DNA from: Crossaster papposus
Taxonomy: Eukaryota; Echinodermata; Asteroidea; Velatida; Solasteridae
Length of the DNA: 64,000 nucleotides
Assembly (NCBI GenBank): GCA_037893245.1
Contig: JBAIAA010000118.1
Span: 372,001 to 436,000, forward strand
Reading direction: 5' to 3'
Shown here: positions 1 through 61,460 of the stretch, in pieces
Layout: each line of letters begins with the position of its first letter
How positions within the stretch are numbered: position 1 is the first letter of the stretch
Position numbers and translations under genes: made by a program
Notes under the pieces: generated by a model
Databases searched by the model: none
What the model was told of the DNA's origin: nothing
Seen by the model: only the letters and a program-made list of their open reading frames with translations

Positions 1-621
1 TATAAGACGGTTAATAATTTGGTAGTAAACAGTTATGGTATACTATTTGTCAATTTTGCATTTTTTCTTCTGTGTGAGAGAGGGTTGGTTTTTTTTGATA
101 GGTGGCGTAAGTTATAATAGTAGGAGGGTATATGTGACCCGCTCCATCGTAATCAGGAATAAGTCGCTGGGGCCGTTTTACGCAATCGGCCGTTGAAGTG
201 AACGCATGGGTGAAAATCGTGAATAAGTCGTTTTTCTGAACATTGTATTTTTAGGAAGTGTAGTTATCACAAATTATTGTCATTAATGTCTTGTATGTAA
301 AAACGATCAATAAAGATGAAAATGAAGAGGATTTGTGTGCACTGTCCGTATGATTTTGGTCAATTTTGTTTATTTCAAAGCTGTTTTACTCAGAATGTAG
401 ATTCGACAAATAAATATACACCTGTCATCTTCATCGGACCATAATTCGTTAACCTAAGAAGATACACACTTGTGATGGGTATCATTAGAAGGCTTATGAA
501 ATTTCCTTTCTCACCATGTGCATATCTCAAAAAGTCATTTCGAGACTTATTCCTGATTTTGATGGAGCGGGTCACATATTGTTTTTCCGATTCTATTAAT
601 AATTTGGCCCACTGTACTGAC
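1..621 (-). other. Last intron (partial)
   Basis: This stretch follows the exon 10 donor. Positions 130-579 are an inverted-repeat element. Positions 1-129 are AT-rich and hold nothing I recognise. A weak acceptor-like CTCTCACACAG near 68-78 would add only EEKMQN and a stop, which does not resemble the family C-terminus. Confidence 0.7.
130..579. mobile_element. Inverted-repeat element ending ATATGTGACCCGCTCC
   Basis: The left end (ATATGTGACCCGCTCCATCG, then AATCAGGAATAAGTC) is repeated inverted at the right end (GACTTATTCCTGATTTTGAT, then GGAGCGGGTCACATAT). A second copy of the same family is at 55310-55765 with matching internal sequence. There is no coding capacity, so it is a non-autonomous DNA transposon (MITE). 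The outermost ATAT is ambiguous between element and target. Confidence 0.85.
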
Positions 622-743
622 CTTCGATGATTTCTTGTTTGATCTCGTTCAGCTGGACACGGATATCTGCCAGGATCTCTGTCTTGAGTCGCTCAAGCTC
701 GCTCTCATTTGACGAGCCGTTGCTCGTTGCTGAGCCCCGCCGT
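622..743 (-). CDS. enah: Exon 10: tetramerisation (TET) coiled coil, incomplete at the 3' side
   Basis: The acceptor is TTTTGTCTCGACAG and the donor ATCGAAG/GTCAGT; the exon enters with one base and leaves with one. It encodes RRGSATSNGSSNESELERL, then KTEILADIRVQLNEIKQEII plus Glu (model residues 483-522). The second part matches the right-handed coiled coil of VASP, which ends EEIIEAFVQELRKRGSP. The remaining 10-15 codons and stop should begin with an Ala codon completed in the next exon. No such exon is visible in 1-621, which is mostly occupied by an inverted-repeat element, so it lies outside the window. Confidence 0.94.
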
Positions 744-804
744 CTGTCGAGACAAAACAAAATAATACTCACAAAAATAGTTCAAAAATAGTTCAAAAAT
801 ATAG

Positions 805-1170
805 AACAAAAATATAAACGCCCACAAAAATATAAACGCCCACAAAAATATAAACGCCCACAAAAATATAAACGCCCACAAAAATATAAACGCCCACAAA
901 AATATAAACGCCCACAAAAATATAAACGCCCACAAAAATATAAACGCCCACAAAAATATAAACGCCCACAAAAATATAAACGCCCACAAAAATATAAACG
1001 CCCTAAAAATTGTTATTTGTCTTGATTTGTAAACAACATTTCTGTCCATCTTTGCCAGTGAGGAATTGCTCAGTAGTGCAGTGATTCCACCCACAACACA
1101 GATGTGGGTGGAATCACTGCATCACTGAGGCGTTTATATTTTTGTGGGCGTTTATATTTTTGTTCAGTGT
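805..1170. mobile_element. MITE with an expanded 18-bp terminal motif
   Basis: The core is the same family as 34454-34618: ends with AACAAAAATATAAACGCCC inverted at both sides, and an internal TTGTCTTGATTTGTAAACAAC. On the left side the 18-bp subterminal motif ACAAAAATATAAACGCCC is repeated about 11 times (805-1003), against two copies on the right. The open frames across the array are a by-product of an 18-bp period. It lies about 60 bases upstream of the exon 10 acceptor. Confidence 0.85.
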
Positions 1171-1171
1171 A

Positions 1172-1721
1172 CAGGGTGTCTCTAAAAAAAGTAAACCCAA
1201 CTTAAACAGCAAATTTTCAGAAAACTATAAAATATTTACACATTATTGTTCATGGTTAGATAGTCCAATAAGTCCTCTGTCCAATTATATCACTTAGGTT
1301 ATGTAACTGTCATGCATGACTGAGCATGATTCAACTTAGTGAATGGGTGTCAAATCATCACTGTGGCAAGTTAGTTCTTGCTATTGTCATGCATTCAGGG
1401 CCTATTTGAAGTTAAATTTTTGTCACATGCTAGGCCTATGATTACAACAACTTCAGCAAAGGTTCTTCCTGACACAGGCACACTTCACATGCTTTCCAAA
1501 CATGGTACAGTTGACAATTGAGCAGAGAGTATTCCTGATTTGACACCCATTCACTAAGTTGAATCATGCTCAGTCATGCATGACAGTTACATAACCTAAG
1601 TGATATAATTGGACAGAGGACTTATTGGACTATCTAACCATGAAAAATAATGTGTAAATATTTTATAGTTTTCTGAAAATTTGCCGTTTAAGTTGGGTTT
1701 ACTTTTTTTAGAGACACCCTG
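1172..1721. mobile_element. Long-inverted-repeat element of Tc1/mariner type
   Basis: Arms of about 190 bp begin CAGGGTGTCTCTAAAAAAAG and are inverted at the other side (CTTTTTTTAGAGACACCCTG). Each end is flanked by TA, the Tc1/mariner target. There is no transposase frame. It directly abuts the end of the MITE at 805-1170, so it probably inserted into that element's terminal GTGTA. Confidence 0.85.
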
Positions 1722-1746
1722 TATATGTATGAATGTTTTTTAATTC

Positions 1747-2062
1747 GGTACCATGTGGACATGAACCCAATGCGGACCATCGGAGTCAAAATGTCTCCGC
1801 AGGGTATATTTCTATAGATAAATGGCTCTCCACAATTTTTTCACAAATTTTACTCAAAAACTAGGATTAGTGTTTAGGTTTGGGTAAGGTTTTGGGTTAG
1901 GGTATAATAAAGAGTATATTTGGTCCAAATTTCAACCCAGGAAATTAACCGTGGTTGAAATAGGAGCATTTTGAAGAGAACTGTTGACAATCCACAAATT
2001 TTGTACACGAGAACAAAGAGATCTCTCTACAGGGATACAAATTTGCGAACAGATATTTGCTA
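1747..2062 (+). repeat. R5 repeat, diverged copy
   Basis: It shares CATGAACnCAATG, GTCTCCGnAGGGTA, TTTCTATAGAT, GGGTTAGGGTATAAT, TTTCAACCCAGGAA and GAACAAAG with copies at 58960-59297 and 60460-60802. No terminal repeats or coding frame were identified, so the class is unknown. Confidence 0.75.
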
Positions 2063-2159
2063 ACAGATCATTTTATAATTGAAACTATACAAAAGAAATG
2101 CTCCAAAAGACTGGATAACTAGAACGGTTCTCGATCCACGAGGCTCGTCTACTTTCGTA

Positions 2160-2460
2160 ATTACAAATGACCTTTGAACTCAGTATGTTACCTTTATTAT
2201 AATTATCACAAGCAAGTTTCCATATTAGATAGATCTACGATTGTAATTAAACTTCAAGTTTTCAAAAGGTTTTACAAGCCTACTTAAGAACTTGACCCAA
2301 AATAACCTTTGACCTCAATACTTAACCTTTAAAACAACCATGATATGAAGGTTGCAATATTACATCTATGAGCCAAGTTTAACTGCAATTGGACTCCAAC
2401 TTTGCATATCAGACTAATCTTTCAAAACTTTAACCAAAATGAAACATAAATGTATACTAA
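2160..2460 (+). repeat. Diverged repeat with TGACCTTTGACCTC phrases
   Basis: Phrases such as AATGACCTTTGAACTC and AACCTTTGACCTCAAT recur here and again around 59515-59720. The remainder of intron 9 between the exon and this block shows nothing else I recognise. Confidence 0.45.
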
Positions 2461-2644
2461 CTTACATACGAATAGATAATTTTGTTGTGAAAGCTGTTCC
2501 CAACCAGGGCTTTATACTTGTTTCCTTGTAGGAGCCCATACAAAATTGTACTTGAAATATTTACAAACGAAGAAAAGGACAAACGCAAGCTAATGAGTAA
2601 TAATATGTTCATTTCATTTGAAGCTGTGCTACTACAGTACTTAC

Positions 2645-2759
2645 TTTAATTTAGGCGAGCCGGATTGGGCCTCGTTGGACATGCCGTTGGTTTTGGCTGC
2701 AAATCTGTTGGCTGTGGGTGGACCCGATGGCTTCTCCCATGGCTTTTTGACACCGCCAT
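2645..2759 (-). CDS. enah: Exon 9: PWEK linker segment
   Basis: The acceptor is GGCTCAGTTTCAG and the donor TTAAA/GTAAGT; it enters with two bases and leaves with two. It encodes DGGVKKPWEKPSGPPTANRF, then AAKTNGMSNEAQSGSPKL (model residues 444-481), with the split codon giving Lys482. KKPWEK aligns with RRPWEK of human VASP, a small conserved block between the FAB motif and the tetramerisation domain. Together with exon 10 it creates the sequence LKRRGS, a classic basophilic-kinase consensus across the splice junction. Confidence 0.93.
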
Positions 2760-2816
2760 CTGAAACTGAGCCAAAATAACATTCTGGTTGTTATTATAGT
2801 TATTATTAAATTATTA

Positions 2817-3355
2817 TTCATAAATACCTGGGACAGTTTAGGCATTCCTATTGGTCGAGAGCCCGTCACGTGGCCGGTATTAAACGGACGATAAAGACAT
2901 GGCTGGAAGTGTTTAAAACCAGCTGGCAACAAAGCGATGTCGCATTATACCCGTCCCCAGGGCTCACTTTATTTCCAACCGTACCTCGTCTCAAATAGTA
3001 AGAGCAGGTAGTGTTGGGCACGTACAGCTCGACACCCTAGGAACGAAGTTGCCAATGGCAGTAATAGTCTGGTTCATAGTAAATACGCTTTATTGCATGT
3101 ATTGTGTAGAGCGACAGAGGCGAAAACATGTCATTTGACACGCACAGAATGACGAAACACCGAAATTTACTTGCGACAATTTTCCGGGATTTTCCGAGAT
3201 TTTTTTGCTGAATTTTACAAAAAAGGTATTTATGAATGGGAATAAATGTGTGTTCGGTCGGTATTAATCACTCTGTTTAATACCGCTTGGAGTCTGGGTG
3301 CTGATAATTACCCTTGCCTTCGGCTCGGGTGATTAAAACCTTTATTCCCTTATTA
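2817..3355. mobile_element. R2 element with attached, partly decayed hairpin
   Basis: The core is bounded by TTCATAAATACCTGGGACAG and its rough inverse AGGTATTTATGAATGG (2817-3240). It is followed by GGGAATAAATGTGTGTTCGG and a hairpin arm reaching the loop CCTTGCCTTCGGCTCGGG near 3313-3330, after which the second arm is short and degenerate. Other copies are at 27743-28326 and 49322-49832. Confidence 0.8.
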
Positions 3356-3374
3356 TTATTATTGTTTTACGGTA

Positions 3375-3616
3375 TTAACCAGTTCGCGCCGGATGACGTA
3401 TATAAACGCACAGTTTTCCCCAGATTCAAAACGGATGACGCATAAACACGCCACGAGCAAGGCCGGAAATGTCTGTCAGCAGAGAGCAAGGCCGGAAATG
3501 TGTGGGTGTGCTTCCCTGCACTATGGACCTGAACCTGCTTCGGATCGAGTTTCGTTAAAAACAATCCCGCCCCTCGGCTCGGTGATGTTAAAATAATCCC
3601 GGCGCAAACTGGTTAA
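3375..3616. mobile_element. R3 MITE (TTAACCAGTTCGCGCCGG), complete
   Basis: Left end TTAACCAGTTCGCGCCGGAT; right end CCGGCGCAAACTGGTTAA. The outer TTAA on both sides is consistent with a TTAA target. The interior has ATTCAAAACGGATGACGCAT, a doubled GAGCAAGGCCGGAAATG, GATCGAGTTTCGTTAAAAA and CTCGGCTCGGTGATG, shared with about a dozen copies here. There is no coding capacity. Confidence 0.9.
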
Positions 3617-3780
3617 GCCTCCAATTTTGTGTGTGTGACACGGCTATAAAAGAAATCAACTGCAACATCTTCCTATTTGCTCAATGGCCTTTTATTCTAA
3701 CTGCATTCACTTGTACATGTACTAGTGGTTTCTTTAGCCTGCCCATTTGACTTGCATGTATCAGAGAGTTCTCATCTCAG
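3617..3780 (+). repeat. R9 repeat, one arm of a distant inverted pair
   Basis: It runs from CCAATTTTGTGTGTGTGACACGG (shortened: CCAATTTTGTGTGTG) through GAAATCAACTGCAACAT to TCAGAGAGTTCTCAT. The inverse is at 11328-11492. It is followed by a 38-base R3 right-end fragment at 3786-3823. Confidence 0.75.
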
Positions 3781-3823
3781 AGTTCTCGGTGATGTTAAAA
3801 TAATCCCGGCGCGAACTGATTAC

Positions 3824-4740
3824 GGAGACAAGTGACATTTCGATGTCTCTTTTAGTGTTCTAACTCCTTGAAAGACAAACATTTTCACTGTCGAAACAGT
3901 CTAGATCGATAGAGTAGAGTTTAAAATGTTTAAATACCAAATTTCGTATAAAAAAAAGGATTAGGGAAAAACGGGTTAGGTGACAGTATACAATTGTTGC
4001 CTGCTGTGACATGGTCCATGGCGTTTTGTACACCCGAGGGGGCAAATGGCACCCGAGGCGAATACCACGGTAATAGATTCTTACGGAGAAAATAAGGCAA
4101 AATTGGAACAGAAAAAAAGCAGACGAACAGCATAAACGAAAGCCGGTGTAAACAACAATGGCGGTCGTCAGTCGTTGCCGAAAGTGCTAACTTCACTGTT
4201 CCCTGTTTACATCGCACAGGAACATACATCAATTTACGTAGTACCAGCTAATATAACACAGCGCCATGTCAAAGGTTGCTAGACTCTAATATCAGTCGCT
4301 TCCATGGTATTTATCACAGAAATGGCCGGCCAGGCTATGCGCTAGCGTGTAAAAAAGAATTCCACGGCCTGGAAAAAGAAAGTTCATGTACCCCGTGGGG
4401 TACATGAACTCATGTACCACGCGTACTCAGCGTACATCACTCATACATCGGCACACTCGGATACATGCGTTTTTGTGGCATGTCACGTGAACGCTTCTCG
4501 ACCAATAACAATTCACAATCTATTGCCGTGGTATAACAATGAAGTTTGACAATTTTGACAACGCTTCTATCGAGATGTCTCCCAAATGACCCATCGAAGG
4601 TAAATTTTGTGTGTTTCAGAGGGTGTCTAAAGTTTATCATGCAAAGAAAGTTTGGATGGGAGAGTAAGGCGAGGTGAACAAGGGAGAGTAAGGCGAGGTG
4701 AACAAGGGGGAGGGGGGCGGGGGAAGGGGGGTATACTAAC
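3824..4740 (-). other. Intron 8, gene-free stretch
   Basis: Nothing recognisable is encoded. There is a small perfect palindrome GTTCATGTACCCCGTGGGGTACATGAAC (described by halves: GTTCATGTACCCC and its inverse, 4382-4409), a purine-rich direct repeat at 4665-4720 next to the exon 8 donor, and a few GC-rich patches near 4020-4060. Confidence 0.6.
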
Positions 4741-4801
4741 CAGTTCTAGGATGTCCAACGTCATTCTGTTGTGGCTTGCTGTCACCTCCGGTTGCACTAT
4801 C
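4741..4801 (-). CDS. enah: Exon 8: short linker exon
   Basis: The acceptor is TTTATATTTTAG and the donor AACTG/GTTAGT, a weaker donor than its neighbours. It encodes 20 codons, DSATGGDSKPQQNDVGHPRT, plus one base that joins exon 9 as Asp. It is a polar, disordered spacer between the FAB motif and the PWEK segment, as in VASP. The identification rests on phase agreement at both ends and position, since the peptide itself is not diagnostic. Downstream in the intron is a short G-rich GGCGAGGTGAACAAGG direct repeat (4665-4705). Confidence 0.82.
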
Positions 4802-4947
4802 CTAAAATATAAACAAATTCATTTTGTTAACAACGAGGGTTTATAAAACGGATCGAGTCTTCTTTATTCATTTGTGTAATGATATCAGTCAAATTCGTAT
4901 TCCAACTGTGCATACTTGTGCACAACATGATTTGACAAATTTTTTCT

Positions 4948-5037
4948 TTAACCCTAACTCCCTCACCATTGTTATTGAACAATACAATTCCTTCAAAATC
5001 CTCCAACTTCCTTTGTTGTGTAGGGAGTTAGGGTTAA
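4948..5037. mobile_element. Short element ending TTAACCCTAACTCCCT
   Basis: The 16-base ends TTAACCCTAACTCCCT and AGGGAGTTAGGGTTAA are perfect inverses around a 58-base AT-rich core. It belongs to a set in this window with AACCCTAAC-type ends (10256-10316, 13226-13675, 40471-40616, 63406-63744). The CCCTAA unit looks telomere-like, but the context is dispersed rather than tandem. Confidence 0.7.
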
Positions 5038-5828
5038 GGAAAGACGCAGAAGATATCAAATTCACACAAGGTTATGGTGAACATGGTAATCAAATTTAAA
5101 GTTTGTGCATTTTTTTCGTGCAATTGAGAAGACGATGGAAACTTGAGTAAGATTAAAACTGCTGCAAACTGCTTACTGGCTGGAATGACCTGAAATACAC
5201 AAATCAAATAAATTAAGAGGGCCTAATTTTCTGATCTTACTGTATATAAGATTTGACACACAAGACACCTAAAACCACTTTACTGTTCAAACTTGTTTGT
5301 TTTTTAAAGGTTACCTCAGAACACGACAAACTCTTTAAAATTTGCTGGATTTCATCTCTATGCATAAAAATTTACACACATACTATTACGTACATTGTAT
5401 GATGAAATGTTTCTCTCGAATGACAAATCGTCGAATATGATGCGCACACGTGCAGTTGGAATACCGAACTGGTTGATTGACATGGTATTTTAAAAATACT
5501 TGCTTACTATGCTTGCTAAGTCTCTATGAAATGAAGGAGGCTGTGTTAAGCACAAAATTTGTTGCCAAGCAGCACTATGAAATTGGGCCCTACTCCAGTT
5601 TTAAGCCAGACGTTTAAAACTGCTCTTCCAACACTATTATTCCCTTATAAGATATTTTAACACGCACTATTCCTTCACAAAGTCTACAAATGTTAGCATT
5701 AAATAAGTGCTAAATTTAGTTCATTTAGGTGAGGAATTGGTCCCCCTGTTAACTGCTTTTGTTCATCGGTTGTCAGTGCTGGGCAAGTAGTAATTTTTCC
5801 CACTCGAGTATCGCGAATAAACTACTTA

Positions 5829-6500
5829 GGTAATAACAGTGTGAGGACCCGGTTATTACTGCGTGATAATGACCGGGTTGGGGGATGACCGCTGGTAATG
5901 GATCGAGCAGAAGGCGAGGTCCATTACCAGCGGTCATCCCCCAACCCGGTCATTATCACGCAGTAATAACCGGGTCTTCGCACTGTTATTACCTTTCATA
6001 AATACCTTTTAAACAAGAAAATTTGTCAAAATGCTCCAAATCTCGTGACTTTTTTCCCGGCGATATTTACAGCGTTTTGTGTTCATGTTTAGGGGCCATG
6101 TTTTAGCTTATGCATGGTACCCTGTCTCTTCAATATGTGTTGTTATTATAACCCATACTTTGAGACCAGACTAGCTGACCACTGATGCCCACCGTGTATA
6201 GCAACGCGCCAGCGTTAGCAGACGACACACACATTTTGAAAAATGCCGCGCGTATAGATACAAACGTTCTACGCGTACATTTTATAGCACGCAGTATCAA
6301 GATTTGACGCGTCCTTGTTACAAGTTACCGTAGAACTGTTGCATTCGGCCAATCATGGGCTTACATGATGCTTGATTTATGCTGGTTCAGGGAACATTTA
6401 TTCGCTTCTTCTTGAAACCCATGATATTACTACCTGATAATCCACTCCACATGATCGAGTCTCGACCAATCAGAAGCCAGCAACTCTCCTAGGTATTTAT
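5829..6500. mobile_element. R4 element with a 165-bp hairpin
   Basis: Positions 5829-5993 form a near-perfect palindrome (GGTAATAACAGTGTGAGGAC outwards, about 72 bp per arm) with loop 5901-5919, read on the minus strand as CTCGCCTTCTGCTCG. The hairpin is followed by CATAAATACCTTTT and the element ends near CTCCTAGGTATTTATTAATC. The layout matches R2 (hairpin, AAATACC end, unique core, GGTATTTAT end), though the hairpin sequences differ. Confidence 0.75.
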
Positions 6501-6723
6501 TAATCACGAGTAATTGAGTATTCGCGAGTAATTATCTCAATTTTCACAAGTAGGGAAAATGACAGTCACACGTGTTTATCACCATGTGTTTTCATTTAAA
6601 AGCATAACGGTAATTTCTCAGCGAGCTTGGCAGCAATTTGGTTTCCTTTATCGCTCAAGTTCCAATTCAAAATGTGTTTTTATTTCTCCATGGTAGAATT
6701 GAAAGTCTATAAAGATCATTATC

Positions 6724-6961
6724 ATATGTGACACGATCAAGCGGAATGAGTCGGATGTCGGGGAATCCCATAAAAGTTTTAATCAGAACTGTGTTCTTCG
6801 TTGGTATTTAAACAAATGTACATAACTCGACAACAAAACATCGAATCAACATGGGGTTTTCAGTTTTTAAAACGTACAGATGCCCTCTTTAAAACTACAT
6901 GAAAACTCATTTTTTGACTGGGGTCGACATCCGACTCATTCTGCTTGATCGTGTCACATAT
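6724..6961. mobile_element. MITE ending ATATGTGACACGATC, copy 1
   Basis: Inverted ends of about 36 bp (ATATGTGACACGATCAAGCG, then GAATGAGTCGGATGTCG) enclose a shared interior. The sister copy is 10435-10650. Confidence 0.9.
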
Positions 6962-7203
6962 CGTAAAACCATGGTAAATGTCGTAATAAATTAATAATCC
7001 CACCGTGTTGCAACGTCCACCTGTACTCGTCAACAATCAATGCTCGATAACAATCACCACTCGCAAGTACCTATTACTACTAGGGCTGGCATGAGTACTC
7101 GAATAGTTTTAAAAACGCGAGTAGTTTAACGAGTAGTAAAAACTAATCACGAGTAATGACATAATCGAGTTAGTCGCTCAGCACTAGTTGTCAGTCTACT
7201 CAC

Positions 7204-7341
7204 TGTTTTCTTCAAGCGTAACTGTAATTTCCTCTGCATTTCGCTCATCAAATCTCCGCCGCCTCCTCCACCTCCACCCCCGGCTCCGCCCACTTTGCTT
7301 GGTGTATTGCTGCTGGAACTACTTGTACTGGATGGCTCATC
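7204..7341 (-). CDS. enah: Exon 7: Ser/Gly-rich spacer and F-actin-binding (FAB) motif
   Basis: The acceptor is TTCTGTGTGCAG and the donor AAAACA/GTGAGT; the exon is 46 whole codons, phase 0 at both ends, so it could be skipped without a frameshift. It encodes DEPSSTSSSSSNTPSKVGGA, nine glycines, then DLMSEMQRKLQLRLKKT (model residues 407-423). The last part matches the FAB motif of VASP (GGGLMEEMNAMLARRRKAT) in the Gly-run, Leu-Met and basic-end pattern; it anchors the tetramer to the filament side. Thr423 stands where VASP has Thr278, a kinase site after basic residues. An R3 element lies about 107 bases upstream of the acceptor. Confidence 0.95.
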
Positions 7342-7447
7342 CTGCACACAGAATCCAACAAATAAGGACATGCATGGATTAAGATCATAGCTATCTGCGT
7401 TATAAAAGGCAAAAACAAAAAGAAATTGCAAGAAAAAAGTCTTGAAA

Positions 7448-7669
7448 TTAACCAGTTCGCGCCGGATGGCGTATATAAATGCAACATTTTCACCAAATTC
7501 AAAACGGTTGACGCATAAACACGCCAAGTTCAAGTTCGGAAATGTCTGTCAGCTGCGAGCAAGGCCGGAAATGCGTGGGTGTGCTTCCCGCTTCGGATCA
7601 AGTTTCGTTATAAATAATTCCGCCCCTCGGCTCGGTGATGTTAAAATAATTCCGGCGCAAACTGGCTAA
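7448..7669. mobile_element. R3 MITE in intron 6
   Basis: TTAACCAGTTCGCGCCGGAT to CGGCGCAAACTGGCTAA; the right end has a single change from TGGTTAA. It is close to exon 7 (about 107 bases upstream of its acceptor). Confidence 0.85.
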
Positions 7670-7674
7670 AGTAG

Positions 7675-8197
7675 GTTTAATGATGTGGGTTTTTTTCATT
7701 CTCTTACCGTAGCATCTAATGAAGCACTACAATTTTAAATCTTTAAACAAAAAGTTGTAAAGACCAATGCATTATTCTACAGAGTTGTGCCATATACCAA
7801 ATGAAAGCTAATTTCCTGCTTTTTCTGATTAAACAAAACCATGTAAAACTAAAATTGGTAATTGCTTGAATTATCATGAATGGGTGGATTTAGGGGGTTG
7901 TATTTTATAGTAAATATCGTTTAACTAACCTGTCCAAAGTTTTACCGAGAAATGTATGAAAAACAGCGATTGTTTTCGCCGGACGGCGATAGCGAATTTT
8001 TCTTTATAAAATTATATTGTTCAGAATAGTTAAAGGATATCTAGCGCAATCATATTGCTGGATGCCTAGAATCATTATTTACTTTCAGAAGAGTAAAATA
8101 TTTCTTAGTAAATTTTGTCGATATCTGCAAATGGTGTATCCTACCTTTAAACAAATATTTGTAACACAGACTCATTTTTGCAGAGTGGGTCACATTT
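7675..8197. mobile_element. TGTGACCCACTC element interrupted by an R1 copy
   Basis: The right end CTCATTTTTGCAGAGTGGGT, then CACATTT, and an interior with GACCAATGCATTA and GTTGTGCCATATACCAAA match 14297-14750 in opposite orientation. Positions 7853-8152 are an R1 element (TTGGTAATTGCTTGAATTAT to GGTGTATCCTACCTTTAAA) inserted inside it. The left end is missing. Confidence 0.8.
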
Positions 8198-8234
8198 ATA
8201 CATACATGTAGTTAATAAAAAAGAAACTTCTCAC

Positions 8235-8479
8235 CCTTGGTGCTTTCTTGAGCTTTGCAGCATTGAGAGCTGCGGCGAGCCCACTGCCACCGGTTGGTGG
8301 GGGCGGGGGTGCAGGGGGACCCCCTCCTACCCCTGGGGGTGGTGGGGGAGGAGGGGGAGCAGGCACACCTGGTGGGAGGCCACCGCTGGGCGATGTCTGC
8401 GGTTGTGATGGAGGGGCGGGTACTGGCGGGGCGACTGGCGGCAACGGCGGGGCGGCCGGTGGGGGTGGGGCAGCTGGAG
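8235..8479 (-). CDS. enah: Exon 6: poly-proline core and G-actin-binding (GAB) motif
   Basis: The acceptor is TTTTCTCAACAG and the donor CAAGG/GTGAGA. The exon enters with two bases and leaves in phase 0. It encodes proline-rich runs (APAAPPPPAAPPLPPVAPP, a run of eight prolines before GVGGG, and PPAPPPPPTGG), which in this family bind profilin-actin and SH3/WW partners. It ends with GSGLAAALNAAKLKKAPR (model residues 360-377), matching the GAB motif GLAAALAGAKLRKV of VASP, the thymosin/WH2-like site that loads G-actin. Human VASP has a kinase-target Ser (Ser239) right after this motif; here Ala-Pro follows Lys-Lys, so that site is missing. Confidence 0.97.
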
Positions 8480-9072
8480 CTGTTGAGAAAAGTAATGAAT
8501 ACACACAATGAACACAACAAATATATGGCCGAGGCCATAGGTTGTTTTTAGGTTGGTTTCGAAAATATTTGATGTTTATTGTTTGGCAATTTGATTCACA
8601 TTTGCAAGAATGCACTTTTATGTACTGGCCTTTATAACCAGGTCTTGGCAGAGTGTTGGAATGTTTGCATAGCGATGGCAATGAGTGATTGGAATAACTG
8701 ACATATTTTCACCTAGATAATTGACCATCATCTTGAATGTCAACATACATGTACTTTTTTTTTATACACCCACTCCTCATCAGGCAATGTGGTACCTGTA
8801 TGTTCAATTGGCTGACATGTGATAAAATTTGTACATGTTTATGGCAGAAAATGTGGCCTGTCCCTATTTTTCTTCACCTGAATCCTGCAAAATCCTGCAA
8901 TTCCAAAAATAAGCTTTAAATTTTGTTTTCACATGCCTGATATGTTGTTTGAGTGGGAATATGTACACTGTACATGCATGTCCTAATCGAGTTTTTTATA
9001 CCATGGAGGAAGTCCGGTACCTCTGTTATTGGTCTAAAATGGTCACGTGTCTATTGTATAACAACGCATACG

Positions 9073-9800
9073 GTATGTGACCTGACAGCACAAAATAATT
9101 GTAAAGCCACACTATGGCTTTTTTAGTTATTTTACCAGTAAAAACAACAATTTTTACTGAAAAGTAAATTTTTTGATTTTAACCTTTTCTATTTGAAAAA
9201 CCTTATTCTGTCATATCCCAGTAAACTAAATCTCTTAAAAGGTTTTAACAGGAGAGAGAAGGGGGGAGGGGGCAGTAGGAATTAGATACCACAACACACA
9301 TCTACTGGTAGTTAAAACTTGCAACCTGTACTTTCAGGAAATACCGATTACGCCCATTTCATGGTAACAGGTCACATGTATGTGACATGGCACCACTAAA
9401 TGAGCGGAAAGTCACACACGACAAAAACGAGTTATTGGCCAAATGTAAACAATTTAAGTGGGAGGTCGGTTTAGAGTTAACGTTTTTACATACAAAATAA
9501 CCTTCATTTTCATGTTCCGACATGTTATAGCTCATTTAAAACTCTAAAGTGTTTTGTTTTTTTTGGCTGAATTGCACTGAGTGATAGTATAGTTAGCACA
9601 ATTCACGGACTTTGAACACCGGTTTCTCAAAACAAGGGAGCATGACTTCCGCTATTTCAAAAGAGTATAGCGGCGGCTAGGAATAAGCTACCGCAACACA
9701 CAATACATTATTTGAAAGCATAGGACTTCTTTCTAGAAATGCAATAATGTAAAAAAATATATTTTGAGACTTCCCACCTATTTCGTGTGGCCGGTCACAT
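9073..9800. mobile_element. Two adjacent elements with TGTGAC-type ends
   Basis: The first runs from GTATGTGACCTGACAGCAC to CATGGTAACAGGTCACATG (9073-9378) and the second from TATGTGACATGGCACCAC to TCGTGTGGCCGGTCACATG (9379-9800). The inverted ends are short and imperfect. No coding frame. Confidence 0.5.
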
Positions 9801-10434
9801 GAAAAACCTTTCACTCTGATCATCTAAGAAGTTCCTAAATAAAATTAATTATTAGTAATCAATATCATAAGCTATAACCGCATCCTGTAATCAACGGTCG
9901 GGTACTCTGGTACCCGGTTCTGATGCGCAGCCCTATAACGAGTACAGAGTTTATCTGTCACGACATGTAGTCATGACATGTACTTGTAGTCATGACATGT
10001 ACAGGTGTAGTCGTTACAACAATTATCTACAACCAATGGGTATTACATTGAACTTGTTGCACGGCACTGGCAACACAATTGTCCTGTTTTCTAGAAGAGA
10101 TGCAGCTGGACTAATATTGTGCTTGTGTTTTTTTATCTTGTGCGATGTTTATTTGCTTGTATACTGTACATTTTGTTTTTATTATTACTGTAATTGTACT
10201 GAGGGCCTCCATGGAAAGCAGTGCTGTGCACTGATCGGAGTTTACCCTCATTAATTTAACCCTAACTCCGTAGGGCGTGCAAAATCATATTGATTTTGGG
10301 AGGGTTAGGATTATTAAAGATGCCGTAAATATTTTTTTTTTTTAATATTTTAAAAATATGACGCGTCGTTACCGTCGAGTCAGGCCGGTTTCAGTTTTGT
10401 GCTTGCGACTTTCGAAATACATTGTAAAAACCTA

Positions 10435-10817: not shown

Positions 10818-10930
10818 CTGCGGCCTCGGCAGTTTGGCGTTGTTGCCGTTCAAGCTGTTCCTGTTTCAGCTGCTCCTCCTGCTGCTGTCGCCGTAGTAGT
10901 TCCTGCTGTGCCCTCTGCTGCTCGGCCGCT
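10818..10930 (-). CDS. enah: Exon 5: Gln/Arg/Glu-rich helical linker
   Basis: The acceptor is TTGTTTTTCAG and the donor GCCGCAG/GTAATG; the exon enters with one base and leaves with one. It encodes AAEQQRAQQELLRRQQQEEQ, then LKQEQLERQQRQTAEAA (model residues 259-295). The composition predicts a long, solvent-exposed single helix or coiled coil. The vertebrate Mena LERER region is similar in composition and position, but I would not claim direct homology from composition. Phase matches exon 4 (Arg junction) and exon 6 (Ala junction). Confidence 0.92.
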
Positions 10931-19760: not shown

Positions 19761-19866
19761 CTCTGTCTTGCTTCCTCTTCTGCTTGTGCTGCTTGTGCTG
19801 CTTGTACTGCTTGCTGCTGTTGCTGTTGTTGTTGGAAGTTATGTTGGGCTGTCTGGCTTGGTGGAG
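19761..19866 (-). CDS. enah: Exon 4: Gln-rich linker with an eight-Gln run
   Basis: The acceptor is CCTCTTTCAG and the donor ACAGAG/GTAAGG. The exon enters with two bases and leaves with two. It encodes PPSQTAQHNF, eight glutamines (model residues 234-241, mixed CAA/CAG codons), then AVQAAQAAQAEEEARQ, with the split codon giving Arg. This region follows EVH1 and corresponds in place to the charged, repeat-rich linker of Mena. The Ala/Gln/Glu pattern predicts a helix that continues into exon 5. The exon is the first shared between the EVH1 form and the presumed short form. It is tightly boxed in: a 16-bp minisatellite begins about 70 bases upstream and a hAT-like element ends about 47 bases past the donor. 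Confidence 0.9.
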
Positions 19867-19936: not shown

Positions 19937-20710
19937 GTATGTTTCCCGATCTCTATGTTTCCCGATCTCTATGTTTCCCGATCTCTATGTTTCCCGATCT
20001 CTATGTTTCCCGATCTCTATGTTTTCCCGATCTCTATGTTTCCCGATCTCTATGTTTCCCGATCTCTATGTTTCCCGATCTCTATGTTTCCCGATCTCTA
20101 TGTTTTCCGAACTCTATGTTTCCCGAACTCTATGTTTTCCGATCTCTATGTTTTCCGATCTCTATGTTTTCCGATCTCTATGTTTTCCGAACTCTATGTT
20201 TTCCGAACTCTATGTTTTCCGAACTATGTTTTCCTATCTCTATGTTTTCCGATCTCTATGTTTTCCGATCTCTATGTTCTCCCGATCTCTATGTTCCCCG
20301 ATCTCCGTCTATGTTCCCCGATCTCTATGTTTTCCGATCTCTATGTTCCCCGATCTCTATGTTTTCCGATCTCTATGTTCCCCGATCTCTATGTTTTCCG
20401 ATCTCCATGTTTTCCGATCTCCATGTTCCCCGATCTCTATGTTTTCCGATCTCTATGTTCCCCGATCTCTATGTTCCCCGATCTCTATGTTTCCCGAATC
20501 TCCATGTTTCCCGAATCTCCACGTTTCCCGAATCTCCACGTTTCCCGAATCTCCACGTTTCCCGAATCTCCACGTTTCCCGAATCTCCACGTTTCCCGAA
20601 TCTCTACGTTTCCCGATCTCTACATTTCCTGATCTCTATGTTCCCTGATCACTATATTCTCCATTGCCCATGTTTCCCGATCGCCATGTTCCCCGATCCC
20701 CAAGTTCCCT
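19937..20710 (+). repeat. 16-bp minisatellite, about 48 copies
   Basis: The unit is CGATCTCTATGTTTCC. Variants are grouped along the array: GTTTCCC units first, GTTTTCC in the middle, GTTCCCC next, and CGAATCTCCACGTTTCC at the end. Because 16 is not a multiple of three but all frames lack stops, it yields three long overlapping frames of up to 303 codons; these are artefacts. It lies just upstream of the exon 4 acceptor. Confidence 0.95.
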
Positions 20711-21918: not shown

Positions 21919-22091
21919 AGAGTTGAGCCTGGTTGTGGCGCAAAAGCGAATGCGAACGCAAATTTGCGACTTCACAGGGAGTTTTCGTGCGGCCAATTCC
22001 CAAAGTTAAACACATTTCAACTCCGGCGAATTTTTGCAGCGAATGCTTTTTGACATCAAATTTGTATCGCATTCGCTCTTATGTGAAGTAC

Positions 22092-22343
22092 AGGGGCCAA
22101 TTTCATAAAAATGTAAGCACAAAAACAGGCTTAGCACAAAAATAATGTTTTACTCAGTGAAAACAGGTTACCAGCCTTTTACTCCATGTGCTTTTCATGC
22201 TAAGCAAAAACCAGCTGAACATCAGTCAAAAACAATAAACATCACCTGGATATTTCATGTGTAACCTTGTTTTGTTTTTCCAAGGAAGAATTTTCATGCT
22301 AAGCAAATTTGTGTGCTTAGGTGTTTTATAAAATTGACCCCTG
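22092..22343. mobile_element. R7 element (GGGGCCAATTTCAT ends)
   Basis: Ends AGGGGCCAATTTCATAAAA and TTTTATAAAATTGACCCCT are inverted, with CTTAGCACAAAAAT and TTCATGCTAAGCAAA inside. Another full copy is nested at 48988-49230, and a partial one at 5525-5592. Confidence 0.75.
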
Positions 22344-22689
22344 GTATGAACCAGCCTTCATCGGTGGCAATAAATCTGGTCCCATTTATACGCTTTACCA
22401 GTTGAAAGGCATGCCTAATAATAAACGAGTTCGTATTTCATAGTTCTTAATTTACGATGTAAAACGTGCATCCCCAGCAGCTTGCATTCTGTGTAACATC
22501 GCGCCGTAAGAGAGATGCGCGCCAATGCTCAATAGAAGTTGTTTACGTGTGGGACTGCTAACACGTGTGAGGAAATTGAAGGAACATAAAATAAACGTAG
22601 CCAGAAGGGTGTTTCACAAAACAAGAAGTATAATTGTTGAACAAAATCACAACTATGGGAGTTCAATTGGTTTCAGTCTTGAAATGCTT

Positions 22690-22756
22690 ACAAAATAATA
22701 AAACTACATGTAAATAATAAAACTACATGTAAATAATAAAACTACATGTAAATAGT
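22690..22756 (+). repeat. 19-bp tandem repeat, three copies
   Basis: The unit is AATAATAAAACTACATGTA. It is short and perfect. Confidence 0.9.
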
Positions 22757-23099
22757 CAATTGTGAGTGCATGACTAGAGTTCAAATATTGGCTTTTCAGT
22801 ATTGAAGTTTGTGGTGTGTTTCTGTTTATAGAGTTTAAACTTTTGACTGTTCCTCCTTAGAAAGCTTGTGCTTAAATACACATACCGGTACTCGTTTTTT
22901 TATTAAACAAAGGCCACTTCCCTTATGTACCAGTGCGTGTACAGTACATGTCATATATTGGTACTTTTTTTATTACAATTATAAATACATGTACTATTGA
23001 TGTGCAAATACATGTAGTACATGTACACATCTCAAAATCGGACTAAACCGAAACCAACCTAAACCTAAAACCGACTTCAGGTCCAAAACGACTTCGGGT

Positions 23100-23244: not shown

Positions 23245-23640
23245 AATATGACTTGCTCCCACGAAATCAGAGTTGACATTTTGAGATATTGGTATTTTTA
23301 GATTCCTTGAATTCTTAGCTTTAAAAAAACATATAATTTATTGGGTAGGGTATTCAAAAAATATATCTTTTGAGCGAAACCAGCCGTCATTACACACATC
23401 AAATTAAGAATAGTTAAGAATTAATTTCGCTACATTTTACTTTTTAGGTACATTGTATGCTCAGTAAAATCTAATCTTTGGCAAAAAATACTTTGGTAGT
23501 TCAAAAGAAAACATATGTGGGAATTGTATCATGCCAAAACTCCCAAAACGATTCCCCACTGTCAAATTGGCTCATTTTAATCAAAACTCAATATAGCATA
23601 GCGCGACTTTACGCCGTTTTCGTAGGAGCAGGTCACAAAT
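23245..23640. mobile_element. Element with TGACTTGCTCCnACGAAA ends
   Basis: Left ATATGACTTGCTCCCACGAA and right TTCGTAGGAGCAGGTCACAA are imperfect inverses. It is another TGTGAC-type element, with GCGACTTTACGCC just inside the right end. Confidence 0.6.
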
Positions 23641-23839
23641 GTGAGGGTTGAGACCGATCGAGTGTCTATAAATGGCTGTTGAGTGGTCCAGGGCCTGATG
23701 AACGGGGTAATAATTGTAAAGCTCCTTGAGATCGTTGATACGATAGAAAGTAGTTATGTAATAAGCATGATAATAAGGTACAATATATTGCAGAATCACT
23801 GTGCCCACCAACAGACTAATAACAGCGCCCAAAGTGTTC

Positions 23840-25408: not shown

Positions 25409-25538
25409 CTTCGTTGAGCATGTCGTCGTCTGAGTCGGCCAAAACCATCTTGAGAACGGACCGTGACTTGACCGTCGCACCGCCGTTGCCGCTGCTGTGA
25501 TTGGCCATCGGAAGCTCCAGCTTGGTGCTCACACTCAT
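25409..25538 (-). CDS. enah: Alternative first exon giving an isoform without EVH1
   Basis: The ATG at 25538-25536 has G at -3 and an in-frame TAA 19 bases upstream. It opens 43 codons to a donor GAAG/GTGGGG that leaves one base, exactly the phase needed by exon 4 (Ala at the junction). The peptide starts MSVSTKLELPMANHSS, has a short GNGG turn, a basic-hydrophobic stretch VKSRSVLKMVLA and an acidic end DSDDDMLNE. I see no known domain. Codon quality and local GC rise resemble the other exons and differ from the surrounding AT-rich intron. Splicing from exon 3 through this exon would need an acceptor in phase 1, and none is visible; the upstream stop also argues for a first exon. The product would keep the actin-binding and tetramerisation parts but lack FPPPP-ligand targeting. 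Confidence 0.65.
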
Positions 25539-26620
25539 TGCAAACAGCGAACCCGGTTAAAAAACAATCCCGGAATGATGTAATTCAACACACACAGAAT
25601 GAAAATCCCAAGAACTGATTAATCTACTGAGAACGAGATTAATTGAAGTCTAGAGTCTAATCATCGACAAAAAGCAGACTAGGTTTATCTCGATAACTCA
25701 AGGTCCTCTCACAAAATGCAGCAAAGTCCAAATTTCGAAAATCTCTTCCAAAGTCGGCCACAAATGAATGCACGTAATCCTCAACCGCACTTCAGTTTAC
25801 AAACTTCCTCATCGATCCTATAAGTCCCTTCTTTTTGTCACGTCAGTGCTGAATATTTGTAACCACATCTGCTAAAATACTTCACTAATTACTTCCTCTT
25901 TTAGGTTGATAATGGTCCAAATCCTGGCATGACAAGATCACAATATAATCTATGTCCACGAACATGTACAATGTAGGACAGTACAATCAATGTACGTTTG
26001 GCAATACAGATGCTTCCAAAGATTACTTTACTGAACAAACACAGATTTGAGATGAAGCAACTTCTCCGTAGAACGTTTTAGATACACAATGATCTTATCG
26101 ATGCTGCGTCCTGTTGTATATATATAGCCTTGGAGGGTTTCTGGGATATCACGTACATGCGACCCAGCTGTGAGAGGAGAGGTCGGCACGTTTAAACTTA
26201 GACTAGAGAAGCTGTCATCATCTTATTCTGGGAGAGATACGGTAAGGAGAAAAACAGCAGGCAGCCAAGAATGATCTGGTCTTTAAGGGGGTTGTAAAGG
26301 CTTTGAGATCTAAACTAGTTTTAGGACGATTCGCTATCTTGGGAAAGAGCAGACGAGAGGTCCTTTGATATTTTATCAGAAGGGAAAATCCCTTTCAATT
26401 TAAAAGTGTCGACACATGACATTCGCAGACAATCCAGTAATACTTTCCAAGAAAAAAAAGGCCAAATATTATAAAAAGATGAAACTCGATGAAAAGATGA
26501 TGAAAAAAGATGAAAAGATGAAATATTGCTAGTGTTCTGAAACAAGTTTTGTTGGTACTGAGAATAGAGGGATATATTTTGTTATCCGAACTAGTGATAT
26601 TAAGAATGTCAAAATATAAC
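25539..26620 (-). promoter_or_regulatory. Repeat-poor presumed promoter and leader of the short isoform
   Basis: This kilobase upstream of the alternative ATG contains the TATA box at 26117-26126 and no recognised repeat, in contrast with flanking intron. A small run of GATGAAAAGATG repeats is at 26480-26525. Leader and promoter limits cannot be set from sequence. Confidence 0.4.
26117..26126 (-). promoter_or_regulatory. TATA box for a possible internal promoter
   Basis: On the minus strand the context is GGCTATATATATACAACAGG, a strong TATA box about 580 bases upstream of the ATG of the alternative first exon. A transcript starting about 30 bases downstream would have a leader near 550 nt. 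That leader contains several upstream ATGs, so it may be spliced or the true start may lie closer to the exon. The interval 25540-26200 is free of recognisable repeats, unlike most of the intron, which is consistent with a functional promoter. Confidence 0.4.
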
Positions 26621-26999: not shown

Positions 27000-27427
27000 A
27001 ATAGATTTATGTATAATCATCAAATCTTCATCGCACTGAGCATCCTATCATGAGCGCTAAATCCTCAGCCAAACTGTCACTTTGTGGTGCACCTACATTG
27101 TACCATACCAAAATAATGGTATTTAGAGTGACGGATTGGTGTCTCATACATTTAAAGTTGCATTGTAGTATACCGTACCATTTGTCAGTTGTGCATTTGT
27201 ATCATTTAAAGCAGCAAAAGTTCTCAAAATATAAAGAAAGATACTTGATAACTAAAACTGTCAGATTTTTTTGCTACCATTTTTTAATTCTTTCATTATT
27301 TTCTTTAGAATGACAGCATGCTAGTAGGAATAATTTCACAGTGAGTTTAGAGTCATTAACCCTAACTCCTTTTGGTGATTTCCTAGGAACCTTCCTCATC
27401 CTTGCAAATCCCAACACCCTGTGCTAT

Positions 27428-28535
27428 TAAAGGTAGTATACACCATTTGCAGATATCGAAAATATTTACTACCGAATTATTAATAAATATCTTACTCATT
27501 TGAAAGTAAATAATGATTCTGGGCATCTAGCAAAATGATTGCGCTAGATATCCTGTAATTATTCCGAAAAGTAGAATTTTATAAAGAAATATTCGGGATC
27601 GCCAGACGGCGATCGCGAAAAAAACAAAGATAACATAAGAATAGCTGCTCGACGACGGTTGAAAACCAACGCTGTTTTTCGTGTTTTTCTCGGCATTCAT
27701 GATTGTAAAACTTCGGACAGGTCAGTTAAACGATATTTACTAAGGGAATAAATGTGTGTTCGAGAGGTTTTAATCACTCTGTTTAATACCGATTGGAGTC
27801 TGGGTGCTGATAATTACCCGAGCCGAAGGCGAGGGTAATTATCAGCACCCAGACTCCAAGAGGTATTAAACAGAGTGATTAATACCGACCGAACACACAT
27901 TTATTCCCATTCATAAATACCTTTTTTGTAAAATTCAGTCAAAAAAGCCCCGAAAATCCCGGAAAATTGTCGCAAGTAAATTTTGGTTCGCCCTTCTGTC
28001 TGTGTCAAATGACATGTTTCCGCCTCTGTCGCTCTCTACACAATACATGCAATAAAGCGTATTTACTGTGAACCAGACTATTACTGCCATTGGCAACCTC
28101 GTTCCCAAGGTGTCGAGCTGTACGCGCTCAACACTACCCGCTCTTATTATTGGAGACGAGGTACGGTTCAGGATTGGAAAAAAAGTGAGCCCTGGGGACG
28201 GAATGGTGATTCCAGCTACCGGTATGTTTAAACACTTCCAGCCATGTCTTTATCGTCCGTTTAATACCGGCCACGTGACGGGCTCTCGACCAATAGGAAT
28301 GCCTAAACTGTCCCAGGTATTTATGAATATAAAATACAACCCCCAAAATTGTTTTCAACCGGCGTCGAGCAGTTATTCTTATAATATTTGTGTTTTTTTC
28401 AGAATAATTAAAGAATATCTAGCGCAATCATTTTGCTGGATGCCTAGAATCATTATTTACTTTCAGATGAGTAAGATACTTCTTAATAATTCGGTAGTAA
28501 AAATTGTTGATATCTGCAAATGGTGTATCCTACTG
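27428..28535. mobile_element. Nested R1/R2 composite
   Basis: R1 in plus orientation (27428-27742) is interrupted within its ATTTACTATAAAATAC by an R2 element (27743-28326). The R1 plus sequence resumes for about 22 bases, then jumps to R1 in minus orientation (28349-28535). The R2 copy includes a complete 165-bp hairpin (27744-27908; ends GGGAATAAATGTGTGTTCG and inverse) with loop GAGCCGAAGGCGA. The R2 core ends CAGGTATTTATGAA. Confidence 0.82.
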
Positions 28536-36678: not shown

Positions 36679-38515
36679 CAGCGTTCTAGCTAGGCATTAA
36701 ATAGCGTGCCGGGCCGACACGCTATCGAAAAGTTCCGACACGCTATAATTCCTCCGATACGCTATCGATACGCTTTAAAAATATTAACTTATAATTTTTT
36801 TTATAACGATTTCTCTGTGTTAAATTGTGGATCAATTATTTGTTTTCATATTGTAACAAAACATTGTGCAGCGCGATGCCATACGTCATAAGTCAGCTTA
36901 CCAAATCACGCCGAAGTCGTCACCAACACAGCAAAACGATTACGATCGGTGTGTGGTTACAAGCAAGCAAGTTGCCAAACTCAACATGTACGTACATGTA
37001 CATGTACACGTACACGCGCGCTGCCTCACACAACCCCCACATGCGATACATCTTTGACATAACAGATAATGCACATGGCCATGTGGGTGCAGGTTGGCTG
37101 CATGTCGTGAATCAGGTTACCACTGAAAATCGGCCAAGCACCAGTCAAAATCTGGGATTTTTTTCATGGGCGCTGTTGTTGCGCTGTGCCGACGATTTGG
37201 CATGGTTTAAGAGAGCGGGGGAAAGGGACTCCCCAAGGGGAGGGGGTTGGGAAGGGGAGGGGGTTGGGAAGGGGAGGGGGTTGGGAAGGGGAGGGGGTTG
37301 GGAAGGGGAGGGGGTTGGGAAGGGGAGGGGGTTGGGAAGGGGAGGGGGTTGGGAAGGGGAGGGGGTTGGGAAGGGGAGGGGGTTGGGAAGGGGAGGGGGT
37401 TGGGAAGGGGAGGGGGTTGGGAAGGGGAGGGGGTTGGGAAGGGGAGGGGGTTGGGAAGGGGAGGGGGTTGGGAAGGGGAGGGGGTTGGGAAGGGGAGGGG
37501 GTTGGGAAGGGGAGGGGGTTGGGAAGGGGAGGGGGTTGGGAAGGGGAGGGGGTTGGGAAGGGGAGGGGGTTGGGAAGGGGAGGGGGTTGGGAAGGGGAGG
37601 GGGTTGGGAAGGGGAGGGGGTTGGGAAGGGGAGGGGGTTGGGAAGGGGAGGGGGTTGGGAAGGGGAGGGGGTTGGGAAGGGGAGGGGGTTGGGAAGGGGA
37701 GGGGGTTGGGAAGGGGAGGGGGTTGGGAAGGGGAGGGGGTTGGGAAGGGGAGGGGGTTGGGAAGGGGAGGGGGTTGGGGCGGAGGGGAGGGGGTTGGGGC
37801 GGAGGGGAGGGGGTTGGGGCGGAGGGGAGGGGGTTGGGGCGGACGGGAGCAATTTTTAATGGGAACATTTTATTTTTCTAAATAGATCCAAAACAGAGAA
37901 TCCTTAAAAAAAAAGAGGTTTTAGGGAGGATGTCAATTCTATCTATACCACAGGGACAAAAAGGCGGACGGGGATGATGGGTTGAGCATTTTGTTCTACC
38001 GAGGCCCAATTAAATAAAATAAAACACCAAAACAAAATTAAAATTAGTACTCTGAGTCTGTGTGTTTTCTTAGTAACCGATTAACACTCTCATTTTGTAA
38101 AACCATCCCTGTAATTTCTATAAAAAAAAAAAAATAAAAAAAAATTAAAAAAAAAAAAAAAAAAATCATTTAACAATAAAACCACTGATGACCAACTGAA
38201 AATGTTGTTGTTTATTTGTATTTATTTGCCTACAGATTTGTTATCACAAAAAAAAGAGTCACAAAATATTATGTGGACTAACTTATAATAAGGCAGTTTC
38301 TGCATTGGGTTTAAAATAATTCAGATGAATTTATAGGGTTACCAACTTCTCTGAGTGGTCTAGATTGCACCAGAGAGCATCTACGGCTTCAAAATTTTCA
38401 GGGGCCCTTAAGCGGGCCCCGGACCACACGTCGTAAAGGATTCGCGCTTCGCGCTCGCAAATTTCACGTTTCAGAAATGCCCCTACCCTATAAACTTTTC
38501 CTAGCTAGAACCCTG
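36679..38515. mobile_element. hAT-like element carrying a G-rich minisatellite
   Basis: Ends CAGCGTTCTAGCTAGG and CCTAGCTAGAACCCTG are inverted (one mismatch), and TATGTGGG is duplicated at 36671-36678 and 38516-38523. An 8-bp duplication and CAGnG ends are hAT features. The 17-bp array at 37237-37846 makes up a third of the element. A related right end occurs at 56980-56994. No transposase. Confidence 0.88.
37237..37846 (+). repeat. 17-bp G-rich minisatellite with a 20-bp variant block
   Basis: About 32 near-perfect units of TTGGGAAGGGGAGGGGG, then about four units of TTGGGGCGGAGGGGAGGGGG. Every unit carries several G runs, so the plus strand can form many G-quadruplexes. Long open frames of up to 344 codons on both strands are artefacts of 17-bp periodicity without stops. 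The gene's template is the G-rich strand. Confidence 0.97.
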
Positions 38516-41280: not shown

Positions 41281-41619
<339 letters not shown>

Positions 41620-51982: not shown

Positions 51983-52148
51983 TGATTGGTCTGTTGAAAG
52001 CCTTCCCACAACTCGGAATGTTTGGTTGGCTGAATGCTGGTAGATGTGTACCCTTGACATGCCCTGGTTTCCAGAGGACACCCATTTCTTCTGGTTGTCC
52101 TCGTACAGCATCACGGAGGCATAGGCCTGGCAAATGGACTTCTCAACA
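51983..52148 (-). CDS. enah: Exon 2: first half of the EVH1 domain
   Basis: The acceptor is CTGTTTGCAG and the donor TCA/GTGAGT; the exon enters with one base and leaves at a codon boundary. It encodes model residues 104-159, beginning [17 protein letters not shown], then [20 protein letters not shown] and [13 protein letters not shown]. This is the start of the EVH1 (WH1) fold as in Mena/VASP. Two of the three aromatic residues that grip the FPPPP ligand are present: Tyr119 (Mena Tyr16) and Trp126 (Mena Trp23). There is no start codon in the exon, so a separate first exon is needed to supply the ATG. The following intron is 10.4 kb and repeat-filled. Confidence 0.95.
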
Positions 52149-61149: not shown

Positions 61150-61460
61150 CTGTGTCCCGGTTCCGTGGGATCCCGTCCATAGTTATTGGGCTTTGTGGAG
61201 CTTAAGTAAGGTGACAAGTAAGTATCCTCGTCTCCAGGTTTCACGCGGGGAATTTCCGGCAGCGGTAGATCGGGCGGTTTGAGCTGTCGCTGGCGTGGGG
61301 GAACACAGGGCGCCAGACGCTTTACATGCAACGCTCGCCCCTCCCGATCTGCGGCCCGTCTCGGCCCGTTGTCCTCGCGGTTGTTTCTGCTTGTACTGCC
61401 ACTGCACTGATCCCAACCCAGGCTGAATTCGACGGTAATCTCGGCGTTCCATTCGGACAT
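61150..61460 (-). CDS. enah: Exon 1: start codon and 103-residue N-terminal extension
   Basis: The ATG is at 61460-61458, with A at -3 and an in-frame TAG four codons upstream. The frame is open to a donor, CACAG/GTAGCA, leaving two bases (AG). Exon 2 begins with a single T, so the junction encodes Ser and is in phase. The peptide begins MSEWNAEITVEF and is polar and low in complexity, with a basic middle (about residues 25-50) and a proline-rich stretch (PPDLPLPEIPRVKPG, about residues 63-77), ending near DPTEPGH. I recognise no domain. Vertebrate family members have only a few residues before EVH1, so this extension is unusual. The exon is GC-rich compared with its surroundings, as expected of coding sequence. 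It could instead belong to another minus-strand gene with a matching phase by chance (one in three), or a shorter unseen first exon may also exist. Confidence 0.7.

Follow-up and report, generated by a model that had tools for sequence, protein, structure and literature searches.

A candidate alternative first coding exon within intron 3 of an Ena/VASP gene predicts an isoform lacking the EVH1 domain

Results

Within a stretch of 64,000 nucleotides of the Crossaster papposus genome (hereafter the window), the sequence from 25538 to 25409, located in intron 3 of an Ena/VASP gene, is likely to be a genuine alternative first coding exon, which we term ALT. Its codon statistics, its donor, its phase and its uniqueness lend good support to the notion that ALT is a coding exon able to start an Ena protein without EVH1. 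Its status as the first exon of a transcript, however, is that of a candidate, because an untranslated exon may be located further upstream and because the TATA-like stretch preceding ALT is no better than expected by chance. Thus, of the internal first exon for an EVH1-less isoform proposed by the initial annotation, the coding exon is well supported, whereas its place at the head of the transcript is retained as a candidate.

The Ena/VASP gene and its putative transcripts

The window is part of a contig of 1.54 Mb, one of the 1,841 contigs that make up the 1.02-Gb genome searched. We identified an Ena/VASP gene on the minus strand; its features are given below from 5′ to 3′ of the gene.

61150..61460, minus strand: probable first coding exon of the EVH1 form; 103 codons and two bases, donor CAG/gtagca, phase 2
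51983..52148, minus strand: exon 2, first half of EVH1; Pfam WH1, 34.8 bits
41424..41613, minus strand: exon 3, second half of EVH1, ending in phase 1; Pfam WH1, 68 bits
25539..26538, minus strand: unique 1-kb stretch, probable 5′-UTR and promoter region; single genome match, TATA-like stretch at 26126
25409..25538, minus strand: ALT, likely alternative first coding exon; 43 codons and one base, donor AAG/gtgggg, phase 1
19761..19866, minus strand: exon 4, Gln/Ala-rich linker, acceptor tttcag; common to both predicted forms
10818..10930, minus strand: exon 5, Glu/Arg/Gln-rich linker
8235..8479, minus strand: exon 6, proline-rich region and LAAALNAAKLKK, which we take to be the G-actin-binding motif
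7204..7341, minus strand: exon 7, Gly-rich stretch and DLMSEMQRKLQLRLKKT, presumably the F-actin-binding region
4741..4801, minus strand: exon 8, based on splice sites and phase only
2645..2759, minus strand: exon 9, KKPWEK motif
622..743, minus strand: exon 10, bulk of the tetramerisation domain (VASP_tetra)

In this gene model, the donors of exons 1 to 10 are GT, the acceptors of exons 2 to 10 are AG, and the frame is open throughout. Both exons encoding EVH1 exceed the cut-off of 22.4 bits for PF00568, and their identity to a Mena/EVL EVH1 is 61% for exon 2 and 82% for exon 3. The WH1 search yielded nine places in the genome, two of which are the exons of this gene and seven of which are located on other contigs; judged by eye, a single one of the EVH1 domains among these places is of the Ena/VASP type. 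Likewise, the tetramerisation domain was matched by PF08776 with 27.9 bits (cut-off 25.8), and a genome-wide search for VASP_tetra gave this one match at E ≤ 1. The proline-rich region and the actin-binding motifs of exons 6 and 7 were assigned by eye and by alignment to an EVL sequence, the C-terminus of which matches exon 7 with an E-value of 1.6e-4 and the motif in exon 6 with an E-value of 0.8; a Pfam search with exon 6 gave no match. The linker encoded by exon 5 is comparable to the LERER repeats that are a feature of Mena. The last exon probably lies beyond the window and would end with AVRTELSKR followed by a stop codon; with 3.0 bits only, it was the top entry of a list and was picked by phase and by likeness to relatives.

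The EVH1 form probably begins with the exon at 61150..61460. The ATG is located at 61460 and is preceded by an in-frame TAG 12 nucleotides before, and the donor leaves two bases, as required by exon 2. The segment 61472-61224 was flagged by the same codon scan as ALT. This exon has no match in Pfam and matches only itself in the genome. With this exon as exon 1, the EVH1 form would comprise 531 residues as summed from the exon lengths, with approximately 100 residues preceding EVH1. The two top-scoring segments of the window outside of exons and tandem repeats both fit the phases of the gene, which supports the method, although each phase has a one-in-three chance of fitting.

Structure of ALT and of the predicted short form

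The open frame of ALT begins with an ATG at 25538-25536, with an in-frame TAA 24 nucleotides upstream, and encodes the 43-residue peptide MSVSTKLELPMANHSSGNGGATVKSRSVLKMVLADSDDDMLNE. It reaches the donor AAG/GTGGGG, which places the exon end at 25409, and closes three codons past this donor. Exon 3 ends with CCCG/gtaagt at 41424 and has one base left over. Since the donors of ALT and exon 3 each leave one base and exon 4 provides two, either of them can be joined to exon 4 in frame, an agreement that by itself has a one-in-three chance. Hence, both the ATG with its upstream stop and 43 open codons, and the phase shared with exon 3, were given correctly by the initial annotation, the coordinates being exact when read on the minus strand.

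In silico translation across the junction of ALT with exon 4 is in frame and remains open through exon 10. The resulting predicted form comprises 352 residues (summed exon lengths), 43 of which are new, and contains the linker, the proline-rich region, the G- and F-actin-binding motifs and the tetramerisation domain. EVH1 is absent by construction, the start being located downstream of exons 2 and 3. When the 43 residues were searched against Pfam, no family was obtained at E ≤ 1, and none of the PDB sequences matched at E ≤ 10. Moreover, neither the DNA nor the protein search revealed a second copy of ALT in the genome, the one match being ALT itself.

The donor of ALT ranks among the strongest of the intron

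Using a donor matrix, the donor of ALT scored 5.54, which places it among the best 4 of the 1,270 GT dinucleotides of the intron, ALT counted. It exceeds eight of the ten other donors of the gene; those of exons 3 and 4 score higher. We then looked for stretches resembling ALT, in which the first ATG that follows a stop codon opens a frame of 43 codons or more leading to a phase-1 donor no weaker than that of ALT; the thresholds for length and donor were thus ALT's own values. Besides ALT, one stretch in 94 kb on both strands fits this description (20930-20759); it scores −27.8 for coding, as compared to +23.6 for ALT, and overlaps a tandem repeat. In gene-rich loci amounting to 456,774 strand-bases we observed 10 comparable candidates, four of which score at least as high as ALT; two of these four (loci L013 and L042) overlap the kinase matches by which the loci had been fetched, and the remaining two are located in L036 and L067.

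Codon usage of ALT exceeds expectation from base composition

The codon model was trained on 20,127 bases of this genome, in 48 kinase or RRM segments, with 49,745 bases of the window as background. For training, 60 loci were taken, four with stops in the hits were dropped, and removal of near-duplicates reduced the remaining 56 to 48 segments. From the background we removed tandem repeats, exons 2 to 4 (two of them with ends off by 1-3 bases), ALT and positions 1-9999; exon 5 and the exon at 61 kb were kept, and both are among the top background scores. Elsewhere in the genome, the contigs C282, C359 and C701 harbor more than 30 equal-scoring kinase-like matches with open frames of mostly 534-546 codons and a spacing of mostly ~6.7 kb. 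In the contig pairs C866/C692, C727/C365 and C741/C275 the matches are equal in length and similar in score, which suggests that haplotypes were left uncollapsed in the assembly or that the copies arose by recent duplication.

With 0.548 bit per codon, ALT outscored every one of 10,905 overlapping background windows of 43 open codons, the best of which are located at 61.4 kb, followed by exon 5 of the Ena/VASP gene, and 78% of the 134 training chunks. Read in any of the five remaining frames, this DNA reached at most 0.258 bit per codon. ALT is GC-rich (57.7%, with 79% at third codon positions). Of the 2,143 windows of 130 bp taken from intron 3, 75 reach this GC content; these correspond to a 17-bp array at ~37.5 kb, a G-rich patch at ~30.1 kb, the beginning of a 10-bp array at ~24.9 kb, and ALT. 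None of 5,000 composition shuffles with an open frame reached the score of ALT. When synonymous codons were redrawn, none of 10,000 sequences reached it with local noncoding triplets, and 46 of 10,000 with a GC-matched model. As shuffles and redraws rarely or never attain the score, composition alone does not explain it.

In a segment scan, ALT scored 25.0 bits in its own orientation, with a maximum of 11.0 bits on the opposite strand, and the top-scoring segment covers all 43 codons. Between ALT and exon 4, no segment on the minus strand exceeded 9.3 bits outside of tandem arrays. In the 30 kb of flanking sequence scanned, one GC-rich stretch outside of assigned exons scored high, at 64557-64808 in window numbering (locus L076), with 30.5 bits when read on the minus strand and as much as 25.0 bits on the plus strand. 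A high codon score by itself is therefore no proof of an exon. Short coding-like fragments were also noted on both strands at 7548, 12996, 31079, 39836, 48654 and 54676 and in the flank; these are variants of KHTHAFPALLAAD and its antisense, and probably represent pieces of one dispersed repeat.

ALT is located in a unique stretch of a repeat-rich intron

The kilobase upstream of ALT matches only itself in the genome. In contrast, of two control kilobases from the same intron, 27401-28400 consists almost entirely of an abundant repeat (6,982 candidates at first look), and 22001-23000 contains a repeat in ~270 of its 1,000 bases (4,508 candidates). The description of this kilobase as repeat-poor is thereby borne out, and ALT together with the upstream kilobase makes up 1.1 kb or more of unique sequence within a repeat-rich intron. 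An origin of ALT from a mobile element or retrocopy is not supported, because ALT and the upstream kilobase match only themselves. The repeat at 27401-28400 has matches of ~600-900 bp throughout the genome with up to 98% identity, those on the opposite strand being ~200 bp in length. The intron further contains a G-rich array of 17-bp units at 37235-37838 (35 copies, 98% matches), and an array of 16-bp units at 19938-20698 (TATGTTTCCCGATCTC, ~47 copies) ends ~70 bp upstream of the acceptor of exon 4.

Concerning promoter signals, the TATA box placed ~580 bp upstream by the initial annotation does correspond to a TATA-like stretch (26126/26124, 588 bp before the ATG), but it is not significant: the minus strand of the window contains 23 instances of the pattern, the CpG density is ordinary, and five ATGs lie between the TATA-like stretch and the ATG of ALT. 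It thus does not place a promoter, and as it is no better than chance we set it aside as support for ALT. A scan with a bacterial-type promoter consensus, which is not suited to animals, singled out no start site, and no RNA families were found in the window at gathering thresholds.

Other explanations for ALT

ALT could be the coding start of a separate gene or transcript that is nested on the same strand and does not include exon 4. Its donor looks real, exon 4 as its partner is only a candidate, and weak coding-like pieces are present between the two, for instance at 23602-23739 (9.3 bits). However, such pieces score no higher than many in regions without recognised exons, the one at 23602-23739 has no Pfam match, and the next recognised exon after ALT is exon 4, with the right phase; we consider a nested gene unlikely. 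We give still less credence to an unspliced reading, in which ALT is a stand-alone short open reading frame of 46 codons. The frame is indeed open for the three codons beyond the donor before the stop is reached, yet the coding signal ends at a donor among the best 4 of 1,270 of the intron and in the phase of exon 4.

A long-dead exon is expected to have lost some of its ATG, frame and donor. In ALT all three are intact, and the codon choice goes beyond composition-matched nulls, which argues against a decayed or chance coding-like stretch without a living transcript. The non-significant TATA box, the likewise high score of the GC-rich flank stretch at 64557-64808 and the origin of all evidence from one genome would be in line with such a stretch, which we nevertheless judge improbable. 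Use of the region as an internal insert joined after exon 3 appears very improbable, as the in-frame stop upstream of the ATG bars the whole stretch in frame and the best-scoring segment covers all 43 codons. One AG within the frame, seen by eye, could give an in-phase exon of 21 nucleotides, but its pyrimidine tract, again by eye, is poor. In favor of an insert, the position just downstream of EVH1 is, in the protein, the site of the INV insertion of Mena according to the excerpt of PMC5099927.

Discussion

As an alternative first coding exon, ALT would be transcribed from a start inside intron 3 and spliced to exon 4. The short form would tetramerise with itself or with the EVH1 form, and mixed tetramers would carry fewer FPPPP-binding domains per tetramer. 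The polymerase activity of Ena would then be coupled less to partners such as lamellipodin, zyxin, the WAVE complex or formins, and more to actin filaments themselves. The short form would most likely act as a less targeted subunit that reduces the EVH1 valency of mixed tetramers. Both roles put forward by the initial annotation, a dilution of targeting domains in mixed tetramers or an action outside of normal recruitment, are plausible in view of published constructs. More tentatively, and with some doubt, we consider that an internal promoter of its own could provide a dedicated EVH1-less Ena that lowers the number of targeting domains per polymerase by cell or stage, and that the 43-residue start could bring its own partner.

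The excerpt of PMC4721544 reports co-precipitation of full-length Mena with EVH2 domains in isolation, as well as mixing among Mena isoforms. The introduction of PMC4543927, citing others, states that targeting to focal adhesions and the membrane is lost upon removal of EVH1, and that EVH2 by itself is concentrated in the actin of lamellipodia and not tightly at the membrane. As described in PMC8290545, UNC-34 without EVH1 retains a weak enrichment at the tip, is less enriched at the tips and swellings of dendrites, and does not restore filopodia. For the fly, the excerpt of PMC3992947 describes that Dia-driven filopodia in cells are not diminished by ProEVH2, and that ProEVH2 can reduce Dia-stimulated assembly in vitro. 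As far as these excerpts go, the non-rescue of filopodia and the result with ProEVH2 indicate that EVH1-less Ena has little activity in some settings.

The EVH1-less proteins in the excerpts of PMC3992947 and PMC8290545 are constructs. The splice forms covered by the review passages (PMC10340426; PMC3728509) are EVL-I and, for Mena, INV, 11a, delta-v6 and other insertions or omissions, VASP being without splice forms, and none is described there as lacking EVH1. Among the matches listed from a search of mainly open-access literature, in which the unslashed spelling of the family name may miss some papers, we recognised no natural EVH1-less Ena/VASP isoform; such a form may exist elsewhere, in gene databases or in further papers. 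If transcribed, ALT would provide a natural form of the Ena/VASP polymerase that is uncoupled from FPPPP targeting. As EVH1-less forms have been studied in the shape of engineered constructs, a natural one would show whether the choice of promoter serves animals to adjust the valency of their Ena tetramers. Moreover, codon statistics can point to first exons that are missed by homology searches as used here.

In terms of kinship, ALT is an alternative first exon in an already known gene family. The gene shares with Ena, UNC-34, Mena, VASP and EVL the order of EVH1, linker, proline-rich region, actin-binding motifs and tetramerisation domain, and the predicted short form differs from these proteins in that it lacks EVH1 and begins with 43 new N-terminal residues without Pfam or PDB match. 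The Mena forms INV, 11a, delta-v6 and + exon as well as EVL-I likewise arise from alternative coding exons in an Ena/VASP gene, and INV is located just downstream of EVH1, as ALT would be. In the review passages, however, the Mena and EVL forms are insertions or omissions elsewhere in the protein, whereas with ALT transcription would start past EVH1, and the domain would be lost. The ProEVH2 and delta-EVH1 constructs of Drosophila Ena and UNC-34 have a domain content much like that of the predicted short form, but they are laboratory-made and lack the natural 43-residue start. Finally, in the case of Homer1a, a short product of a single gene changes the valency of a multimeric EVH1 protein; Homer1a retains EVH1 and loses the multimerisation domain, while the form predicted from ALT would do the reverse.
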